NCBI RefSeq assembly: GCF_024699985.1 | Contig: NZ_JAJONA010000001.1 | Coordinates: 2,108,001-2,172,000 of the forward strand | Reading direction: 5' to 3' | Source: Phenylobacterium sp. J367 | GTDB lineage: Bacteria; Pseudomonadota; Alphaproteobacteria; Caulobacterales; Caulobacteraceae | DNA length: 64,000 nt | Shown: positions 37,374 through 47,607 of the stretch, in pieces | How positions within the stretch are numbered: position 1 is the stretch's first letter | How the letters are laid out: the number at the start of each line of letters is the position of its first letter | Made by a program: the position numbers and the translations under genes | The notes under the pieces: model-generated | The model's database searches: none | Seen by the model: only the letters and a program-made list of their open reading frames with translations | What the model was told of the DNA's origin: nothing

Positions 37374-37500
37374 ATCCCTCCCCTTCAGGGGAGGGTGGAC
37401 GGAGCGAAGCTCCGCCGGGTGGGGGTGTGTGAGCCAGGCGCGATCCCCCGCGCTTGAACCCCGCTTCCCCACCCCGGTCGGCTGCGCGAGCTGCGCTCCG
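37374..37500. repeat. Dispersed intergenic repeat (copy D)
   Basis: Starts with ATCCCTCCCCTTCAGGGGAG then GTGGACGGAGC and an AGCGAAGCT/CCGCCGGGTGGGGG segment, the same left half as copies B and C. The right part is diverged and ends in a run with a small GCGCGAGCTGCGC hairpin. It fills the gap before ettA, so it could also act in termination of the preceding gene. Confidence 0.55.
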
Positions 37501-37588
37501 GCGCCGCCCGTCATTGCACCTGGGGCTCCGCCCCGCTATCTGCACCCGCGACTTCCCACACTTCGATAAGAGCGAGCGCGGACGCCCC

Positions 37589-39261
<1,673 letters not shown>

Positions 39262-39263
39262 GG

Positions 39264-39301
39264 GGCGGGGGGCTTGGGTCGCCTGACCCCCATCCCCCGC
39301 C
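39264..39301. terminator. Bidirectional terminator hairpin between ettA and the peroxidase operon
   Basis: GGCGGGGG (39264-39271) pairs with CCCCCGCC (39294-39301), with an inner GGGTC/GACCC stem (39276-39280, 39285-39289). It lies exactly between two convergent stop codons, so it can end both transcripts. Confidence 0.65.
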
Positions 39302-40233
39302 TAGAACGGCGCCACCAGGGCGGTGCGGAAGAACCAGCCGTCGGGGCCGTCGTCGCTGCGTTCGATCACCTGCTGCCAGGTGAAGATCAGGCTGGTGCGC
39401 GACACGAACGGCAGGGCGAGGCTCCCGCCCGCCGACCAGCCGTGCATGCCGTTCGCGTCGCGCACGCCATCGGTCTCCGTCTCGCCGCCCCGGCGGTAGA
39501 GCAGGTCGGCGGACACCCAGAGCCGGTCGCCCAGCGTGCGGGTCAGGTGGGCCTCGACGGTGAGGAAGGGGTCCTTCTCGCTGCGCGCGCCGCCGAACGG
39601 GTCCTCGTTGGGCGCATAGAAGGTCACGGTCGGGAGCACCTCCAGGCTGGTCAGGCCCGGTTCGCGATAGGAGCGCCCGGCCGCGAAGACCGTGGGCAGG
39701 CCGACCTGGAAGGCGGCGCGATTGGAGCCCAGGTTGAGGGGCTGGTCGCCGTCGTAGGCGCCGGTCGGGAAGAACACCCGTCCGAGGATCTGCACGCCGA
39801 AGCCCGGCGCGTAGGCGGCATAGGCCGCCGGCGTGAGGGCAGGGGCCCCGAGCAGTCCCACCGTGCCGCCGAGCTGGATGTCGCCAAGGCCGGAACTGGA
39901 GGCCGCGCCGGTCCGCCGGACCTCGCCGAACGGCAGGATCGCGAACGGCGTGACCGGCCGGCCGGCGATCTCGAAGGTCTCGGCGTAGCGGAGGACCAGG
40001 ATGTCGGTGTCGATGTCGGCGCCGGGCGCGACCGAGCCCGGCTCCGGCAGCTCGTTGCCGCGCTTGTTGACCAGGAAGGCGGTGACGTTGCGGGCGCCGA
40101 CGGGCGCGAGCTGATAGACCCGCGGGCCGTCGTCCTGCGCGCGGGCCTGGGTCGCCAGCGCCGCCAGGACCAGGGCGGCGAGCAGGAGGGCGGCGAGGTT
40201 GGCGGCGATCAGGACCGCGAGCCTGCGCCTCAT
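39301..40233 (-). CDS. Phenol-MetA-type outer-membrane barrel, last gene of the peroxidase operon
   Basis: A 310-aa protein. A long N-terminal signal ([18 protein letters not shown], ending ARAQD) precedes a barrel: [52 protein letters not shown] and terminal [11 protein letters not shown]. This is the Phenol_MetA_deg family, proposed outer-membrane transporters for aromatic substrates. The ATG overlaps the preceding flavoprotein's stop (4 bases), so it is translationally coupled to the DyP operon. It probably moves the peroxidase substrate or product across the outer membrane, an inference from context only. Confidence 0.82.
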
Positions 40234-41663
40234 GAAAGGGCCGCCGCGAGGCCCGTGGCCTCGGCCCCGCGGTTCAGCCGATGGGCGGCGGCCGCCGCCG
40301 CACGGCCGAGGACGCCGGCGTAGATCGGGAAGCTGAGCGGCAGGCGGGCGAGCGCGTCCACGGTGAGGCCGCCGGCCATGGCGACGGCCGCGACCTGGGC
40401 CACGTCGACGGCGCGCTCGCCCACCAGGTGGCAGCCGAGGAGGGCATGGCTGTCTCGGGCGACGATCAGCTTGCAGAGGCCGGTGGTGCGGCCGTCGATG
40501 ATCGCCCGCGTGGTCTCGGCGAAGGGGACGGCGACGACCTCGATGTCATGCCCCTCGGCCCGCGCGGCGGCCTCGCCCAGGCCGACCTGGGCGTACTCCG
40601 GGTCGGTGAAGCTGCCCACCGGATTGACCGCATGGGCGGCGGTCTCGCGCGATCCGGTGACGGCGTTGGTGGCCGCGGTGAAGCCGGCCTGCAGGGCCTG
40701 GGGGACCAGCATGCGGACCCCGGCGACGTCGCCCGCCACATAGACGTGCGGCGCGGTGGTCTGCTGGGCGGCGTCGACGCGGACGAAGCCGCGGGCGTCG
40801 GTCTCGACCCCGGCGGCGGGGAGGTTCAGGCCCTGCGTGTCGGCGGTCCAGCCGACGGCGACGACGCAGAGCGCGGCCTCGGCGGTGCGGGCCTCGCCGG
40901 GCGGGCCATAGGTCATGCGGATGCCGTCCGGCGTCGCCTCGAACCCGTGGATGGCGCCGAACCGCTCGTGGATCACCACGCCGGCGGCGCGGTAGGCGGC
41001 GGCGACGCAGGCCGAGACCTCCGGCTCCTCGGTGCGCAGAATCCGCTCCCCGGCCTCGAAGAGCTGCACCTGCGTGCCGAAGGCGCTGAACACCGAGGCG
41101 ACCTGGGCCCCGGTGGCGCCTGATCCGATCACCAGCATGGAGGGCGGCACGGCGGTCAGCGACCAGGCGTCGGAATGGGTGGCGGTGAGCTCGAAGCCCG
41201 GGACGTCCAGCCGGCGGCTGACCCCGCCGGTGCAGAGGATGACGCGATCGGCATGGAAGCGGCGGCCGGTGGCGGTTTCGAGCGTGTTCGGTCCGACGAA
41301 GCGGGCGCGTCCCTCGTGCTCGCGGATCGTCGCCCCGGCCGCCTCCACCTGGGCGCGCAGCGAGGAGCGCGCGGCGACCTCGGCCACCACGTCCGAGACG
41401 CGGACCAGGAGGCGGCCGTAGTCGAGTTCCGGCGGCGCGCCGCCGATGCCGTAGGCCGGGAGCTGACGGGCCTCGCGCATCAGCCGCGCCGCATGCGCCA
41501 GCGTGCGGACCGGGACCGGCCCGTCGTTGGCCGCCATGCCGCCGAACGCGCCCTCGGTGACCAGGGCGGTGCGGGCGCCGAGCTGGGCGGCGCGCAGCGC
41601 GGCCATGGTCCCGGCCGGCCCGGCGCCGACCACGACGACGTCGGTGACGAGAACGTCGGTCAT
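40230..41663 (-). CDS. Class-I pyridine nucleotide-disulfide oxidoreductase homologue lacking the redox cysteines
   Basis: A 477-aa FAD/NAD(P)H flavoprotein with mercuric-reductase/dihydrolipoamide-dehydrogenase architecture: FAD-binding GAGPAG (13-18), NAD(P)-binding MLVIGSGATGAQVASVFSAF, second FAD segment HVYVAGDVAG, and the C-terminal dimerisation domain (NPVGSFTDPEYAQVGLGEAA). In place of the canonical GGTCxNxGCxPSK active site it has GGMAANDGPVPVR, so both cysteines (positions 44 and 49) are Ala and Pro. The C-terminal catalytic His/Glu region reads LSFPIYAGVL, so those residues are missing too. It can bind FAD and pyridine nucleotide but cannot do disulfide chemistry. It overlaps the DyP gene by 4 bases. 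Likely a non-thiol oxidoreductase serving this operon. Confidence 0.85.
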   Translation of the reverse strand: MTDVLVTDVVVVGAGPAGTMAALRAAQLGARTALVTEGAFGGMAANDGPVPVRTLAHAARLMREARQLPAYGIGGAPPELDYGRLLVRVSDVVAEVAARSSLRAQVEAAGATIREHEGRARFVGPNTLETATGRRFHADRVILCTGGVSRRLDVPGFELTATHSDAWSLTAVPPSMLVIGSGATGAQVASVFSAFGTQVQLFEAGERILRTEEPEVSACVAAAYRAAGVVIHERFGAIHGFEATPDGIRMTYGPPGEARTAEAALCVVAVGWTADTQGLNLPAAGVETDARGFVRVDAAQQTTAPHVYVAGDVAGVRMLVPQALQAGFTAATNAVTGSRETAAHAVNPVGSFTDPEYAQVGLGEAAARAEGHDIEVVAVPFAETTRAIIDGRTTGLCKLIVARDSHALLGCHLVGERAVDVAQVAAVAMAGGLTVDALARLPLSFPIYAGVLGRAAAAAAHRLNRGAEATGLAAALS

Positions 41664-43009
41664 TGTGGCCCGGCCGCGACCTCCGCCAGCCAGCGCAGCG
41701 CCGTGAGGCTGGGCATGAAGCCATAGGCGCCGCCCCGCGTGGTGACGAACCGCGCCAGGCCCTGGAGGCGTCGCGGCAGCGGCCGGCGGGGGATCGCATA
41801 GGCGCCCGCGCCGTCGGCGGCGCCGCAGATCGGATCGCGGGCGTCGCCGAGGCCCAGGAACTCGCCGCCGTTCACCCACTCCGACTGCACGAACTCGAAC
41901 TGCCGCTTCAGGTGGGCGCCGACGAAGGCGAACATCAGGCCGCGGTCGGCGCCGTCGTCCTCGGTGACCCCGGGCGGCAGCGGCGGGCCATAGGCGGTGC
42001 CCCGGCGGATCATCCGGTGCAGGCGGACGACGCCGGCGACGTCGGCGTCGCGCGGGTTGCAGCGGCGGACGTGGCTGCCGGGCGGGGTCCTGTAGCCGGT
42101 GGCGTCGTCGGCCCGGAACAGGAAGGCATTGTTGCGCGCCGGGTCCCCGCCCAGCGCCGGATCGTCGTGCATCGGGCAGAGCGCCAGGGGCGCGCCGCTG
42201 CGCCAGCGGCCCATCATCTTGGCGGCCAGCAATTCCTCGTCGTCGGCCCCGCTGGAATTGGCGCGGAGGTAGCGGCGGAAACCGGCGACGTCCTGATGCA
42301 GCTTGCGGAACACCACATAGGTCCCGTTCCGGCCGAGGGCGGCGGGCTCGGGCGCGGGCGGATAGGTCCCCATCTCGTCGAGGTAGCCGAGGACCAGTTC
42401 GCCGGCCTTGAGCGGCGCTTCCAGCGGGTTGGTCCCGGGGATGCCGCTGCCCTCGATGGCCGGATGGCTGATCCCGTCCTTGAAGCCGAAGGGCTCCTTC
42501 TCGTCGGCCGGGGCAAAGCAGTCCTGCCGCCAGATCGGGACCACCCCCGGCAGGTCGGCGAAGGCGGCGCGGGCGCGGTCCAGCGCGGTCTGCAGGCTCT
42601 CGGCGCTCGGCGCGACGCCCGTCAGGATCACGTGGATGTCCCGGCCGCCGAACGGCGCCTCCCAGCGCTCGGGCGCGCTCGGCCCCTCGTCGCCGAGCGC
42701 CTTGGCGCGGGCGAGCATTCCCTGGCGGAATTCCCAGGAGAAGCTTTCCAGCGAGGCCTCGGGGAGGCCGAGCGCGACGAGCCCGTCGTAGGTCAGGGCG
42801 ACATGGACGAAGGTGTCGCGCCCCGGCCGCTCCGGCGCGGCGGCGGAGGTCACCACCTCCCCCAGCCGGCGGAGCAGCTCCCCGCCCTGCCCACGGTCGT
42901 CGATCCGCAGCAGGATGTAGGTGGCGGCGTAGGGCGTGGGCCGGGGCCGCAGCACGCCGCTCTGGATGTCCTCCAGTTCCAGCCTCGGGACGGCGGCGTC
43001 GTCAGCCAT
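41660..43009 (-). CDS. DyP-type haem peroxidase
   Basis: A 449-aa haem peroxidase of the DyP family, long (class C/D-like) type. The distal motif GFKDG has Asp178, the proximal haem ligand is His313 (GSHVRRCNPRD) and the catalytic Arg is in MIRRGTAYGPP (about 335-336). No Tat signal, so probably cytoplasmic or encapsulated. DyPs oxidise dyes, phenols and lignin models with H2O2. No frameshift. Starts 3 bases after the stop of the upstream 335-aa gene and overlaps the flavoprotein start (ATGA at 41660-41663). The flavoprotein could supply electrons or recycle products. Confidence 0.9.
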   Translation of the reverse strand: MADDAAVPRLELEDIQSGVLRPRPTPYAATYILLRIDDRGQGGELLRRLGEVVTSAAAPERPGRDTFVHVALTYDGLVALGLPEASLESFSWEFRQGMLARAKALGDEGPSAPERWEAPFGGRDIHVILTGVAPSAESLQTALDRARAAFADLPGVVPIWRQDCFAPADEKEPFGFKDGISHPAIEGSGIPGTNPLEAPLKAGELVLGYLDEMGTYPPAPEPAALGRNGTYVVFRKLHQDVAGFRRYLRANSSGADDEELLAAKMMGRWRSGAPLALCPMHDDPALGGDPARNNAFLFRADDATGYRTPPGSHVRRCNPRDADVAGVVRLHRMIRRGTAYGPPLPPGVTEDDGADRGLMFAFVGAHLKRQFEFVQSEWVNGGEFLGLGDARDPICGAADGAGAYAIPRRPLPRRLQGLARFVTTRGGAYGFMPSLTALRWLAEVAAGPQ

Positions 43010-43012
43010 GGG

Positions 43013-44020
43013 TCACGAGACCAGGTTCTTCCAGAACCGCTCCAGGCTCTCGTCGGCCCCGAAGAGGGTGCTGAAGACCGTGGAGTCGCAGACCAGCACG
43101 TCGCCGGCCCGCTCGCCGGCCGGCGGGGCATAGACCAGGGTGTTGAACGCGCTCTCGCCGCTGGCCGTGAAGGGATGCGGCCGGTTCGGGTCGATGGGCT
43201 GCTTGGCCAGCACGACCGCGGTCCCGTCGTCGCGGGTGATCGCGTAGTGCGGCAGGTGCATGTGGAAGTTCAGGCTCTCCACCCCCGCCAGCCAGCCGCG
43301 GGCGTCGTTCTGCGGATAGGCTTCGAAGGGGGCGATCTTGTTCCCCGTCCCCTCGCGCACCGCCGGACGGAAAGCCCACCGGTTCTCCACGGGGACGCCG
43401 AGCGCCTGCAGGAGCTGCACGGCGTACTGCCCGAAGCGCTGCTGACGCGGCACCAGGAGGTCGCCGTGGTGGGCATATTCCACCGCCCGCTGGTCGGGAT
43501 CGTCGGTGGCGCCCACGTCGTGGTGCGGGCCGATCACCAGCAGCGTCCCGGGCCGCCCGAGCCAGTCGCGCAACGCGGCGATCTCGGCCGCGCTGGGTGT
43601 CTGGCAGGTGACGTTGTGGTCGAGGCTGAACAGGAAGAGCACGTCGCAGTCGCCGAGAACGCGCTCGTCCAGCGGCAGGGCGAAGCCGGCCTGGTCGACC
43701 CGCTGGAACACCGGCACGGGATGGCCGGTGACCTGGGCGGCCAGGTCCTGGAACGGGACCCAGGCCCAGAAGAACAGCTCCAGCGATCCGGCGATGCCCT
43801 GCTGGAACTGCAGCGGGTCGGCGAAGCGCGGGACCTCGTAGGCCGGCCACAGGACGCGGCGCACCTCGGTCATGGTCGAGAAGCGGTTGTCCATCTCGGC
43901 GGGGTTGCGGTTCGCTTCGCCGGGATAGCTCCAGGAGATGTAGATGCTCGCGCGCTTGCGGCCCGGGGTCTCGGGCCTGGGCGCGTGACTCTGGTTGTAG
44001 GTGCGGGCCGGTTCGCGCAT
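43013..44020 (-). CDS. Unrecognised 335-aa protein of the peroxidase operon
   Basis: I do not recognise a family with confidence. The protein has no signal peptide. Near residues 125-180 it reads DCDVLFLFSLDHNV, then a helix and GTLLVIGPHHDVGATDD, a Rossmann-like arrangement resembling glutamine-amidotransferase-like or ThuA-like folds, but no catalytic Cys-His is evident in the usual place. The C-terminus is ESLERFWKNLVS. Some His/Asp-rich loops (HHDVG, EYAHHGDLL, NFHMHLPHY) could bind metal. It lies directly before the DyP gene (3-base gap) and 11 bases after the 185-aa gene, so it is part of the same transcript. Confidence 0.65.
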   Translation of the reverse strand: MREPARTYNQSHAPRPETPGRKRASIYISWSYPGEANRNPAEMDNRFSTMTEVRRVLWPAYEVPRFADPLQFQQGIAGSLELFFWAWVPFQDLAAQVTGHPVPVFQRVDQAGFALPLDERVLGDCDVLFLFSLDHNVTCQTPSAAEIAALRDWLGRPGTLLVIGPHHDVGATDDPDQRAVEYAHHGDLLVPRQQRFGQYAVQLLQALGVPVENRWAFRPAVREGTGNKIAPFEAYPQNDARGWLAGVESLNFHMHLPHYAITRDDGTAVVLAKQPIDPNRPHPFTASGESAFNTLVYAPPAGERAGDVLVCDSTVFSTLFGADESLERFWKNLVS

Positions 44021-44031
44021 GGACGCCGCCC

Positions 44032-44589
44032 CTACTGCAGCTGGTCGAGGGCGTCGGTGAGCGAGGCCTTGAGCCGCAGCGCCTTCTTGATCTCGTCGGC
44101 GCTGACGTAGGGGTATTCGCCGTACTCCAGGAAGCTCGGCACCTGGTGCTCGCGGAAGAACCTGACGACCGCCGGCAGGTTGTCCTTCCAGTCCTCCGGG
44201 AAGCCTTCCAGGTTCACGAAGACGGTGGTGATGCCGGTCGATAGGAACAGCATCAGCGCGTCGTCCATGTACTTGTCGAAGTCGGTGTCGAAGATGCCCT
44301 GGTACATGAAGTAGAGGTCGTCCCCGATCGGGAACATGATCCAGCGCAGGTAGTGCAGCTTGAGCGGGGCCAGCACGCCGGGGGTTTCCCGGACGGCGGC
44401 CTCGATGGTCTTGGCGTAGTCCCGGATGACCTGTTCGCGGCCCGGCAGCACCTTGGCCAGGATCGAGAAGCCGTAGTTGGCCGGCGTCTTCGGAAACAGC
44501 GGACCATAGGGGCCCTCGATCCGTTCGAAGTAGCCTTCCCTGGGGATCGCCAGCGCCGCCGGTGTGAGGAAATTCTCTGTGCCCGTCAT
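44032..44589 (-). CDS. Unrecognised 185-aa protein, first gene of the peroxidase operon
   Basis: Start at 44589 is set by GGAGGG 6 bases upstream. The fold suggested by KVLPGREQVIRDYAKTIEA, then LKLHYLRWIMFPIGDDLYFM and GIFDTDFDKYMDDALMLF, is a ferredoxin-like alpha/beta unit as in dimeric alpha/beta-barrel and DyP/Dbp-like proteins: a two-strand pattern with a Tyr-Arg-Trp strand and an aspartate-rich loop. I cannot name a family. It has no signal peptide. Probably partners the DyP enzyme. Its promoter lies in the 235-base gap shared with the first RTX gene. Confidence 0.65.
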   Translation of the reverse strand: MTGTENFLTPAALAIPREGYFERIEGPYGPLFPKTPANYGFSILAKVLPGREQVIRDYAKTIEAAVRETPGVLAPLKLHYLRWIMFPIGDDLYFMYQGIFDTDFDKYMDDALMLFLSTGITTVFVNLEGFPEDWKDNLPAVVRFFREHQVPSFLEYGEYPYVSADEIKKALRLKASLTDALDQLQ

Positions 44590-44824
44590 GACGCCCTCCC
44601 GCCTGTCGGGAGCGACGGTAGCGGCCATCCCCGCGCCCGGACCTAGGGTGAAACCCGCGCCTGGGGCGACGGCGCGGCCGGAGCTCCGGTCTCAGGCGCC
44701 CTTAGGTTTCCCCGCCTGCGCCGGATCCCACGCCCGCCCCGCGCGGCCGATCGCCACGATTACAAGGGCTTAAGGTCTTGGTAGCACCCTATCGAGGCTC
44801 CACCCGGGGCCGGAGAGCGTCCGC

Positions 44825-45760
44825 ATGACCACCCTCACCTTCGCCCAGGCCCTGCCCTTCGACGTCGGCGCCCTTCGCGACTGGATCGGTACGGTCTCGG
44901 ACCTCGCCTCGCTGGTCAGCATCGAGACCCTGTCGTCCAGCCGGGTGGTGATCGCCGCGGGCGCCACGACCCCGCTCGCCGGCTACCGGCTGGAGCTCCT
45001 GCCGGAGACCAGCTTCGGCATCACCTTCCGCGCGCCCTACCTCTCCGGCGACCTCGGCGAGATCCGGGTGCTCGATCCCCAGGGCCAGACTCTGGTCTCG
45101 GTCACCGACCTGCCGATGGGCGGCGACCTCGATGCGCTGCTCTCCGGCGCCTGGCTGGAGGATTTCGGGGCGAACTGGCTGGGCTCGTCGGGCGCCGACA
45201 CGCTGACCGGCGGCGACGGGACCAGCGTGCTCTCCGGCAATGGCGGGAACGACAGCATCACCGGCGGCGCGGGCTTCGACGCCATCAACGGCAACATGGG
45301 CGACGACACCGCCTCCGGCGGGGCCGGCGACGACTGGGTGGTCGGCGGCAAGGACCACGACCTGCTGTTCGGCGACGCCGGCGACGACATCGTGCTGGGC
45401 AACCTCGGGGACGACACCAGTCACGGCGGCGCCGGAAGCGACATCGTCCGCGGCGGCCAGGGGAACGACATCGTCCTGGGCGACGCCGGCGACGACTGGC
45501 TGGCCGGCGACCGCGGCGACGACACCCTCATCGGCGGGCTCGGAGCCGACATCTTCCACACCCACGGCGACGCCGGCCTCGACCGGGTCACCGACTTCAG
45601 CGCCGCCGAGGGCGACCGGGTCTTCCTGCTGCCCGGGACCGACTACACCGCCGACCAGGTCGGCGCCGATACGGTGATCTCCATGGCCGGCGGCGCCCAG
45701 ATGGTGCTGGTCGGCGTGACCCTGTCGTCCCTGCCGGCCGGCTGGATCTTCGGCGCCTAG
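44825..45760 (+). CDS. RTX calcium-binding protein 1
   Basis: A 311-aa protein: a non-RTX N-terminal domain (about 1-120) shared with RTX protein 2, then about ten Gly/Asp-rich nonapeptides (GGAGDDWVVGG, GNLGDDTSHGG type) and a C-terminal module ending LSSLPAGWIFGA. There is no signal peptide; RTX proteins leave by type I secretion using a C-terminal signal, and calcium folds the repeats outside. No transporter genes (ABC/MFP/TolC) are in the window. Start ATG 44825 is preceded by GGAGAGCG. Divergent from the peroxidase operon. Activity is unknown. Confidence 0.85.
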   Translation: MTTLTFAQALPFDVGALRDWIGTVSDLASLVSIETLSSSRVVIAAGATTPLAGYRLELLPETSFGITFRAPYLSGDLGEIRVLDPQGQTLVSVTDLPMGGDLDALLSGAWLEDFGANWLGSSGADTLTGGDGTSVLSGNGGNDSITGGAGFDAINGNMGDDTASGGAGDDWVVGGKDHDLLFGDAGDDIVLGNLGDDTSHGGAGSDIVRGGQGNDIVLGDAGDDWLAGDRGDDTLIGGLGADIFHTHGDAGLDRVTDFSAAEGDRVFLLPGTDYTADQVGADTVISMAGGAQMVLVGVTLSSLPAGWIFGA

Positions 45761-45849
45761 GCCTCGCGCTCCGCTCGGGGCGGCCGTCAGTGCACGGTTG
45801 ACGGCAGCCGCCCGGCCCGGTCACTGTCCGCTCCGGGGTGGGGGTGAGT

Positions 45850-47607
45850 ATGGATCAGGCACAGCCGGCGCCGGTGCGCGCCACCAACGACCCTGCGGCG
45901 ACGATCCCGATCATCACCTTCGCCCGGCCGACAGTGTTCAGCGGCGACCCCGCCCAGCCCGAGGGCGACCTCCTGCGCAGCCTGCTGGCCGACGCCGGCC
46001 GCTACACCCTGGAGGTCACGCCGCAGAAGGTGGTGATCACCGGCGCGGCCGGCGCGCCCATGGCCGGCTGGCGGCTCGAACTCTATCCCGTCACCACCTT
46101 CACCTCGGGCACTGTGGGCCAGTTGCCCTTCACCGGCCAGGTGGAGTCCGCCCTGCTGTTCAACGCCGCGGGCGAGCTGGTGGCGACCATCGAGGACCTG
46201 CCCACCGGGACCAACATCGCGCTGCTGAACAGCGGCCTCGCCAATCTCGGCGCCGAGTTCGTCGGATCGTCCGGCGGCGACACCATCACCGGCTATGCGG
46301 CGACCGACTTCCTGATCGGCGGCGGCGGCGACGACGTGCTGCACGGCGGCGCCGGCGACGCCGCGGACTATCTGGAGGGCGGCGCGGGCGCCGACACCCT
46401 GAACGGCGGCGGCGGCAATGATGTGCTCGTCGGCGCGACGGGCGCCGACCGCTTCGACGGTGGGGCGGGCGACGACCTGCTGCTGTTCGCGGACGGGACC
46501 GGCTTCGTTGAGCTCTGGCTCGACCAGGCCGCGCCTGCGGGCCAACTCAGGGCGGACGGGATCGAGATCGTCTGGCTGCCCGAGCAGGGCGCCCGGGTGC
46601 ACGGCGGCGCGCTCGCCGACGCCATCCTGGGCGGCGCCGGCGCGGACGAGATCGACGGCGCCGGCGGCGACGACATCCTCGCCGGCCTCTGGGGCAATGA
46701 CACCCTGCGGGGCGGAGACGGCTGGGACCTGATGGACGGCGGCCCCGGGGCAGACGTCATGGATGGCGGCGACGGCTATGACGCCGTGGACTACAGCGCC
46801 GCGGACGGCAGCCTGACGATCGACCTCCGGATCGCCGCCGCCCAGCAGACCGGCTTCGGGCTCGACACCCTGATCAGCATCGAAGACCTCTGGGGCTCGC
46901 TCTACGCCGACACGCTGAACGGCAACGCCTCCGACAACTACTTCACCAGCCTGTCCGGCAACGACCTGATGAACGGCTTCGGCGGGAACGACGACCTGGC
47001 CGGCGGCGGCGGCGGCGATCAGATCTTCGGCGGCGATGGCGACGACACCCTGTCGGACATCGTGGGCCTGAACTATCTGCGCGGCGAGGCGGGCGACGAC
47101 AGCCTGTCGGGCGGCAGCGCCTTCGACGACCTGCACGGCAACATGGGCAACGACACCGTGGCCGGCGGCGGCGGCGACGACTGGGTGGTGGGCGGCAAGG
47201 ACAACGATCTGCTCGACGGCCAGGCCGGGGCGGACATCGTCTATGGCAATCTCGGCGACGACACCTGCGCGGGCGGCGATGGCGCCGACATCGTGCGCGG
47301 CGGCCAGGGCGCCGACACGGTCTCCGGCGGCGCCGCCGACGACTGGCTGGCCGGCGACCGGGGCGACGACACCCTCACCGGTGGGACGGGCGCCGACATC
47401 TTCCACACCCATGGCGACGCCGGCCTCGACCGGGTCCTCGACTTCGACGCGGCGGCGGGGGACCGGGTGAACCTGTTGGCCGGAACCCAGTACACCACCG
47501 CCCAGGTCGGCGCCGACATGGTGATCTCCATGGCCGGCGGCGGCCAGATGGTGCTGGTCGGCGTGACGCTGTCGTCCCTGCCCAGCGGCTGGATCTTCGG
47601 GGCCTAG
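45850..47607 (+). CDS. RTX calcium-binding protein 2
   Basis: A 585-aa protein: the same N-terminal domain as RTX 1 (about residues 40-150), a first repeat block, a spacer with FVELWLDQAAPAGQL, a second block containing the LTIDL...TGFGLDTLISIEDL insert, and the shared C-terminal module (DIFHTHGDAGLDRV to LSSLPSGWIFGA). An in-frame GTG at 45838 is an alternative start; ATG 45850 has a G-rich stretch ahead. The stop overlaps the stop of the convergent FkbM gene by 4 bases. Secreted by a type I system encoded elsewhere. No enzyme motif is visible. Confidence 0.85.
   Translation: MDQAQPAPVRATNDPAATIPIITFARPTVFSGDPAQPEGDLLRSLLADAGRYTLEVTPQKVVITGAAGAPMAGWRLELYPVTTFTSGTVGQLPFTGQVESALLFNAAGELVATIEDLPTGTNIALLNSGLANLGAEFVGSSGGDTITGYAATDFLIGGGGDDVLHGGAGDAADYLEGGAGADTLNGGGGNDVLVGATGADRFDGGAGDDLLLFADGTGFVELWLDQAAPAGQLRADGIEIVWLPEQGARVHGGALADAILGGAGADEIDGAGGDDILAGLWGNDTLRGGDGWDLMDGGPGADVMDGGDGYDAVDYSAADGSLTIDLRIAAAQQTGFGLDTLISIEDLWGSLYADTLNGNASDNYFTSLSGNDLMNGFGGNDDLAGGGGGDQIFGGDGDDTLSDIVGLNYLRGEAGDDSLSGGSAFDDLHGNMGNDTVAGGGGDDWVVGGKDNDLLDGQAGADIVYGNLGDDTCAGGDGADIVRGGQGADTVSGGAADDWLAGDRGDDTLTGGTGADIFHTHGDAGLDRVLDFDAAAGDRVNLLAGTQYTTAQVGADMVISMAGGGQMVLVGVTLSSLPSGWIFGA

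Follow-up and report, generated by a model that had tools for sequence, protein, structure and literature searches.

A DyP-type haem peroxidase gene of Phenylobacterium sp. J367 lies in a tightly packed, presumed operon of five genes (Table 1), within a 64,000-nucleotide stretch of contig NZ_JAJONA010000001.1 (positions 2,108,001 to 2,172,000; hereafter the window). We found that this operon is the local form of a broader system, made of the peroxidase (DyP) and a 185-amino-acid (aa) protein of no known family, FdL, with partners that change from locus to locus. FdL is very probably a true functional partner of DyP. We tentatively favour the reading that the operon is one branch of a widespread two-component peroxidase system, in which FdL would be the dedicated partner of this DyP type. 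FdL and Ross, the name used here for the 335-aa protein, are labels only.

The initial annotation had presented the five genes as one unit and the 185-aa protein as a mere accessory. The five open frames and their spacing (FdL/Ross/DyP/flavoprotein/barrel, with an 11-base gap, a 3-base gap and two 4-base overlaps) are exactly as it described, and its picture of tight gene packing and of a peroxidase with dedicated accessory proteins stands. We rejected the five-gene set as a conserved unit, since all five genes occur in the same order in only 3 of 38 related loci (L006, L010 and L011). Instead of an accessory, the 185-aa protein turned out to be the most tightly linked member. The finding is therefore real but was wrongly framed. 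The combination does appear to be undescribed, as had been proposed: in the open-licence literature, which leaves subscription papers outside the search, no described system was found to match, and no title or abstract start among the matches listed deals with FdL or with the operon.

Linkage of FdL and DyP across genomes

We searched 299 genomes of the window's phylum, the window genome included, with a DyP profile (E <= 1e-10) and an FdL profile (E <= 0.001). DyP was detected in 24 genomes and FdL in 22, at 28 places; every genome with FdL is one of the 24. At each of the 28 places, comparison of coordinates showed FdL either 5′ of a same-strand DyP, at a distance of about 1.3 kb at most, or joined to it in a single open frame. 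Twenty regions were retrieved from 19 of the 24 DyP genomes, and 18 of them carry FdL and DyP together, frequently with tandem FdL copies. A second draw, made from the class, comprised 385 genomes and yielded 12 with FdL, nine of them new. DyP is adjacent to or fused with FdL in nine of the ten new loci, and the tenth ends at a contig end.

The same pairing is found on plasmids, where 16 of 17 DyP loci, hand-picked from a DyP search of 81 records (60 listed), contain FdL; in L163 it lies downstream. Another plasmid locus, L052, is not among these 17 and came from an FdL search. The FdL profile (A4) contains six plasmid FdLs that adjoin DyPs (L053-L057 and L059) and scores there by construction; hence an independent profile, A6, built from close relatives only, was used. 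A6 finds FdL just upstream of DyP in Deinococcus radiodurans (7e-11), Rhodococcus (3e-16), Novosphingobium (1e-12) and Sinorhizobium (2e-9), and fused in two rhizobia (5e-8 and 1e-6). In L056 the A6 match has an E value of only 7e-4 and falls in the second gene upstream, not in the gene adjoining DyP. The FdLs of L168 and L169 are detected by A4 or its extension only, not by A6 at E 0.001.

The linkage extends to single chains, as in a P450-FdL-DyP fusion protein of 1423 aa. A search with the FdL region of this protein returned 1437 proteins, and 115 of 120 among the matches listed carry a P450 Pfam label; being retrieved through FdL, these proteins demonstrate fusion and not an independent link. 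Two tandem FdL copies occur in several further loci, and L152:8716-10437 (-) holds three tandem FdL genes followed by one DyP.

FdL itself, like Ross, has no match above cut-off in Pfam, NCBIfam or PADLOC and no usable PDB relative, so both proteins had rightly been called unrecognised. Among the 62 rows of an FdL alignment, Tyr107 is kept in 57 and Asp101 in 50, beside the still more constant His79 (Table 1). The term "ferredoxin-like" fails in the sense of an iron-sulfur ferredoxin, as FdL (P0001) has zero cysteines. A weak ABM match in 1 of 36 FdL members (E 0.051) is at most a faint hint of a ferredoxin-like alpha+beta fold. The FdL profile matches neither the DyPs nor one NIPSNAP and one ABM protein from the retrieved loci, and at the level of profiles we rejected the ideas that FdL is a degenerate DyP half or a relative of either of these two proteins. 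A PDB match between P0001 and a designed repeat protein was taken as spurious: it covers 33 residues, has no single stretch that passes and disappears when the profile is used.

On the side of the peroxidase, the first assignment is upheld by TIGR01413 (120.1 bits against a cut-off of 100.5). One Pfam DyP model was passed (31.1 vs 27.5) and one just missed (18.5 vs 20). Gly175, Asp178 and His313 are invariant in 26 DyP rows. By family cut-off and motifs, the protein can be assigned to the DyP superfamily.

The closest solved relative of the window DyP is DrDyP of D. radiodurans (DR_A0145, PDB 8RE2/8RE3, PMC10820274), with 385 and 381 bits. The distal Asp and the proximal His of the two proteins align, and Arg335 and Arg336 are invariant in 26 DyPs including that of D. 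radiodurans. FdL lies directly upstream of DyP in D. radiodurans isolate DRR11. The two loci differ in the gene after DyP, which is catalase-like in D. radiodurans and not Ross, and the two proteins in position 5 of GXXDG, which is Met there and Gly in the window. Judging from the species, the annotation and the Met of the GXXDM motif, DR_A0145 and its catalase-like neighbour DR_A0146 appear to be the genes of the retrieved DRR11 record. DrDyP was placed in class V by its authors, and the isolated enzyme carried haem and was low-spin and inactive at pH 7.5 (PMC10820274). The words "operon" and "neighb" have 0 occurrences in the main text of that paper. DrDyP was presumably produced without FdL, since the available passages of the paper name no partner, and a missing partner would be an obvious explanation for its inactivity at pH 7.5.

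Several observations weigh against FdL as the dedicated partner of DyP. The presence of FdL in 22 of the 24 DyP-positive genomes of the first draw is valid for this DyP type only, because the DyP profile (A7) was partly built from FdL-associated loci. Three retrieved DyP loci without FdL (L128, L129 and L166) cluster in the DyP tree, and in L128 and L129 a wider profile detected no FdL either. Genomes G436 and G414 contain additional, weaker DyP places with no FdL match, nor is there an FdL within the visible sequence around the DyP at the edge of L047. The tree-distance correlation is lowest for FdL-DyP (0.37, vs 0.71 for FdL-Ross and 0.59 for Ross-DyP). Finally, genes can be linked although their products form no complex, and FdL might instead act as a regulator or as a chaperone for haem insertion.

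Ross and other candidate partners

When species genomes were scanned with a Ross alignment, 38 loci emerged. Their record titles name Phenylobacterium, Brevundimonas, many myxobacteria, Bacteroidetes, Acidobacteria, Eremiobacterota, Melainabacteria, Rokuibacteriota, Gemmatimonadetes and Eisenbacteria, and the nearest loci with organism names are from Phenylobacterium and Brevundimonas. FdL, Ross and DyP occur together in 34 of these loci; each of the remaining four (L031, L032, L041 and L042) reaches a contig end, directly or within 1.4 kb, on the very side on which the absent gene should lie. When plasmid records are added (8 of 17 matching Ross-type records retrieved), the trio is present in 39 of 46 loci, the further exceptions being 39%-identical Ross relatives without the trio (L047, L049 and L050). 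All 39 trios are on one strand, 28 in the order FdL-Ross-DyP and 11 in the order FdL-DyP-Ross, and 37 of them span 2.85-3.01 kb. The arrangement is therefore more than chance. The trio is thus the set that recurs widely, and its FdL-DyP core is also present in many genomes that lack Ross.

Ross matches were found in 4 of 149 genomes of the family, one of them weak, and in 2 of 398 genomes of the phylum, with the window's own genome included in both counts. Such a patchy distribution of the cassette is as expected for a horizontally moved set. The DyPs that go with Ross form two distinct groups in the DyP tree (FastTree, rooted at the midpoint, branch supports not inspected), one for each gene order, which suggests that Ross became associated with DyP in two lineages.

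Across 34 Ross sequences, down to 39% identity, seven histidines (166, 167, 184, 185, 253, 255 and 282) and four aspartates (126, 134, 187 and 312) are invariant, a pattern that suggests a metal site. The likeness of Ross to DUF4350 is below cut-off (13.5 bits vs 30.4), with weak matches in 4 of the 34 members; profile matches in the PDB are weak and short and were discarded. Rossmann-like, the first description of Ross (P0002), gained no support. On a plasmid of Rhizobium sp. T1473 (L049:6658-10332, +), a 39%-identical Ross relative sits between the genes of an MbnB/TglH-type enzyme for ribosomally synthesised and post-translationally modified peptides and of a DUF2063 protein, with DUF2282 upstream and DoxX downstream. 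This gene set presumably resembles the copper-linked bufferin-type clusters, and it looks as if the Ross family has a second, peptide-modification context.

Where Ross is absent, other enzymes accompany FdL. We compiled 45 non-Ross FdL loci from 18 retrieved phylum regions, 10 second-draw loci and 17 plasmid loci with FdL (L052-L059 and nine of L162-L171); the total includes L161, although its contig ends before any DyP. A catalase-like gene is found in 14 of the 45, a P450 gene in 18 and both in one (L164), so that at least one of the two is present in 31. By contrast, none of the 39 Ross trio loci contains either in the available DNA, and neither the P450 query nor the catalase-like queries found a match in the full 64 kb of the window. 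The contrast between the two groups is strong (Fisher, 1.9e-12) with related loci counted as independent, flank lengths that differ and some Ross contigs that are short.

Here, genes are called catalase-like on the basis of tblastn similarity to three genes with a catalase-family annotation (in L163, of record annotation and Pfam). In a Pfam check the catalase-like proteins of L053 and L164 fall below the Catalase cut-off and that of L120 matches nothing. The P450 query was a single sequence, so distant P450s can escape in either group. Not all P450 genes are on the strand of their neighbours, since the one in L155 is divergent. The Methylorubrum populi plasmid locus L164:1-5341 (+) has a row of FAD-dependent oxidoreductase (FAD, flavin adenine dinucleotide), P450, catalase-like protein, FdL and DyP. 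It is the one case with both haem partner types among the 31 loci, and we rejected mutual exclusion of the two on its account.

Some FdL loci also carry lipid-related genes. L122 has the order FdL-FdL-DyP-patatin phospholipase-P450-FadL, with genes close or overlapping, and L123 has the same order and the same gene lengths, plus or minus a codon. An LCAT-like gene follows the P450 gene in L153 and an esterase-like gene is found in L126. A 3-hydroxyacyl-CoA dehydrogenase gene lies near FdL-DyP in L053, L059 and L165, from Deinococcus, Novosphingobium (on the opposite strand) and Acinetobacter. L121 contains a RoxA-like cytochrome c. A lipid-like substrate for FdL-DyP is thus conceivable, and we put it forward with some doubt.

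That doubt has several sources. Lipid genes occur in a minority of loci, most scanned loci show none, and no background rate stands behind the counts. The C-terminal GDSL-lipase match of the L136 fusion is below the Pfam cut-off. Other scanned neighbours are unrelated (glycosyltransferases, UvrC, MFS, aminotransferase, nuclease-like, GST and amidase), and the genes that flank the window operon, for an ABC-F-type ATPase and an RTX-repeat protein, are no lipid genes either.

The operon in the window, its flavoprotein and its barrel

Third-position guanine-plus-cytosine content is 0.93-0.96 in each of the five genes, and all five frames are therefore really coding. A scan of 38900-44900 restricted to sigma-70-type promoters gave no match, and two terminator-like sites in the same interval are not above chance. 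Searches for RNA families and tRNAs across the window gave no match. PADLOC found 0 families for the five operon proteins, and an anti-phage defence system was rejected as none of them matches any of its models.

Table 1. Genes of the operon and conserved sites within them, in window coordinates
Feature	Position	Strand	Remarks
FdL (185 aa; P0001)	44032..44589	-	open frame, no known family, no cysteine
Ross (335 aa; P0002)	43013..44020	-	open frame, no known family
DyP-type haem peroxidase (449 aa)	41660..43009	-	TIGR01413; best solved relative DrDyP (8RE2/8RE3)
FAD/NAD(P)H-type flavoprotein (477 aa), disulfide-reductase family	40230..41663	-	Pyr_redox_2 and Pyr_redox_dim; without redox disulfide and without C-terminal His-Glu
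Outer-membrane beta-barrel (310 aa)	39301..40233	-	Phenol_MetA_deg family; N-terminus hydrophobic, signal-like
DyP GXXDG motif GFKDG, residues 175-179, distal Asp178	42473..42487	-	aligns with D. radiodurans motif
DyP proximal haem-ligand His313 in GSHVRRCNPR	42071..42073	-	aligns with D. radiodurans motif
Flavoprotein GGMAANDGPVPVRTL, residues 41-55	41499..41543	-	position of CxxxxC in relatives
FdL His79 codon	44353..44355	-	His in 58 of 61 rows with a letter there (62-row alignment)
Ross His166-His167, invariant HH	43520..43525	-	34-sequence alignment

The flavoprotein matches Pyr_redox_2 (170 bits) and Pyr_redox_dim (86.9 bits), in line with its first placement in the disulfide-reductase family. 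The description of it as cysteine-less is wrong as worded, since the protein has 5 cysteines, and right for the redox-active pair, which is missing. Measured against the class I disulfide reductases (lipoamide dehydrogenase and glutathione reductase), the protein has their domains and lacks both CxxxxC and the C-terminal His-Glu motif. The former is replaced by GGMAANDGPVPVRTL and the latter by LPLSFPIYAG, and both substitutes are themselves conserved. Neither redox cysteine is present in the window protein, in any of the 15 orthologues that can be read at the motif or in either of the 2 readable members of a second lineage. That second disulfide-less reductase lineage, GGTVTTTGGAPTKTL, is encoded between FdL and Ross in L033:6556-7926 and L038:6544-7947 (+) and shares 29% identity with the window flavoprotein.

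Within this family, the Si-specific transhydrogenase and NAD(P)H-quinone dehydrogenase branches are members without a complete redox disulfide. The window flavoprotein shares their FAD/NAD fold by profile (229.7 and 197.6 bits) and is far below their cut-offs of 465 and 479; it also differs in that both cysteine positions and the C-terminal His-Glu are changed, with the substitutes conserved. The simplest reading of such a protein would be a reductase that hands on electrons via FAD alone. Whether it is the reductase of this peroxidase system is a more tentative matter, which we consider plausible without leaning on it: the flavoprotein is present in 17 of the 39 trio loci, with the two second-lineage members (L033 and L038) included, and this count speaks against it. 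It is missing in L007 and L009, where the barrel is present. In a Phenylobacterium locus (L008:10370-10816, +), the flavoprotein survives only as fragments, with FdL, Ross, DyP and barrel each matched along most of the sequence.

The fifth gene encodes a MetA-type barrel, as first annotated (Phenol_MetA_deg, 64.7 bits vs a cut-off of 22). It occurs in 6 of the 38 loci, five titled Phenylobacterium or Brevundimonas and one, L007, an unclassified metagenome-assembled genome. In L038 and L043 another barrel of the same Pfam family follows Ross. Five Bacteroidota loci (L036 and L039-L042) share a different barrel family after Ross, and the two members scanned both match DcaP. By family name only, the window barrel is compatible with hydrophobic cargo.

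Beside the operon lies an ABC-F type ATPase gene (37454-39383, +) that is split across two frames, with one ABC domain in 37454-39283 and the next in 38466-39380. Given a genome completeness of 83%, the split is likely an assembly or sequencing indel. A tandem pair of genes for RTX calcium-binding repeat proteins (44825-45760 and 45838-47607, +) is divergent from the operon.

Proposed mechanism, alternatives and known systems

In the mechanism that we propose, FdL would bind DyP and control haem access or present the substrate. DyP bound in this way would act on a hydrophobic, lipid-like substrate and not as a free H2O2 peroxidase. Ross would be the third component here, a histidine-rich and probably metal-binding enzyme in place of the catalase-like protein or the P450. 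The flavoprotein would most likely pass NAD(P)H electrons to oxidised DyP, to Ross or to their product, and the barrel may provide passage for the hydrophobic substrate or product across the outer membrane. The natural role of DyP peroxidases was called unclear in a 2021 review, and fungal class V DyPs are reported to oxidise beta-carotene, partly without H2O2 (PMC8197335).

Close pairing with one enzyme family, frequent tandem copies and the conserved His79 and Tyr107 would suit an FdL that acts as a maturation factor, loading haem into DyP or stabilising it with no catalytic part, while Ross, the flavoprotein and the barrel serve the pathway of DyP. We regard this as unlikely. FdL stands mid-chain in the P450-FdL-DyP proteins, a position better suited to a structural or catalytic domain than to a chaperone, and the haem of isolated DrDyP (PMC10820274) was apparently acquired without FdL.

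General defence against oxidative stress, in which DyP would remove peroxides, the flavoprotein give reducing power and the remaining proteins assist, appears quite unlikely to us. DR_A0145 and DR_A0146 are both reported to be raised under ultraviolet C (UVC)/vacuum stress (PMC5731708), which counts against our favoured reading in that it also fits plain oxidative defence; the catalase-like neighbours in 14 of the 45 non-Ross loci likewise favour such a defence. Nevertheless, DrDyP is inactive at physiological pH (PMC10820274) and KatE1 reportedly scavenges H2O2 more efficiently than DR_A0146 does (PMC7143949). Moreover, detoxification alone gives no explanation for the FadL, lipase and P450 partners in some loci or for the outer-membrane barrel.

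Breakdown of lignin-like or other aromatic compounds, with the barrel importing aromatics, DyP oxidising them and the flavoprotein reducing quinones, can claim a barrel family named for a phenol pathway, the discussion of DyPs for lignin (PMC8197335) and a carboxymuconolactone decarboxylase family annotation 2.7 kb after DyP, with other genes between, in the Streptomyces locus L044; we hold it to be very improbable, as DyP, FdL and Ross should be cytoplasmic because none has a signal-like N-terminus (maximum hydropathy 1.0-1.5), no ring-degradation family is among the directly adjoining genes scanned by profile, and the lignin role itself is called open in the same review (PMC8197335).

Returning to the FdL-DyP pair with changing partners, a bolder and decidedly unlikely extension is that FdL and DyP form the first half of a bacterial oxylipin-type machinery. 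The pair would act on an unsaturated lipid by oxygenating it; the product would then be rearranged or cleaved by a second enzyme, for which P450, catalase-like protein, RoxA-like cytochrome and the seven-histidine Ross would be interchangeable. In that scheme Ross would stand in, without haem, for the second haem enzyme and would have become linked to two distinct DyP lineages.

If a large group of DyPs is nearly always accompanied by an unclassified partner, research on these enzymes may have missed half of their machinery, and FdL may be the missing piece for finding what DyP does. The recurring P450 and catalase-like neighbours, together with the lipase and FadL genes of some loci, lead to a concrete guess at the substrate. 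In addition, a context is now available for two large protein families that have no entry in Pfam.

Among known systems, EfeUOB likewise has a DyP (EfeB) in a multi-gene operon with dedicated partners (PMC8197335). With the EfeB-type model the window DyP scores 21.7 (cut-off 428), and its four partners match no Efe component. The encapsulin shell family has no match among the four partner genes, with genes beyond the operon not scanned for a shell. A different comparison is offered by oxylipin-forming haem dioxygenase-P450 fusions and catalase-related hydroperoxide enzymes (PMC13049297, PMC5617202). The window DyP belongs to a different peroxidase superfamily, FdL is unmentioned for those systems in the available parts of these two papers, and the window lacks matches to the P450 and catalase-like queries, as described above. 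The likeness is that a peroxidase-type haem protein is in both cases paired or fused with a P450 or a catalase-related enzyme, and that lipase, FadL and fatty-acid genes accompany some FdL loci, a lipid connection that here comes from gene context only.

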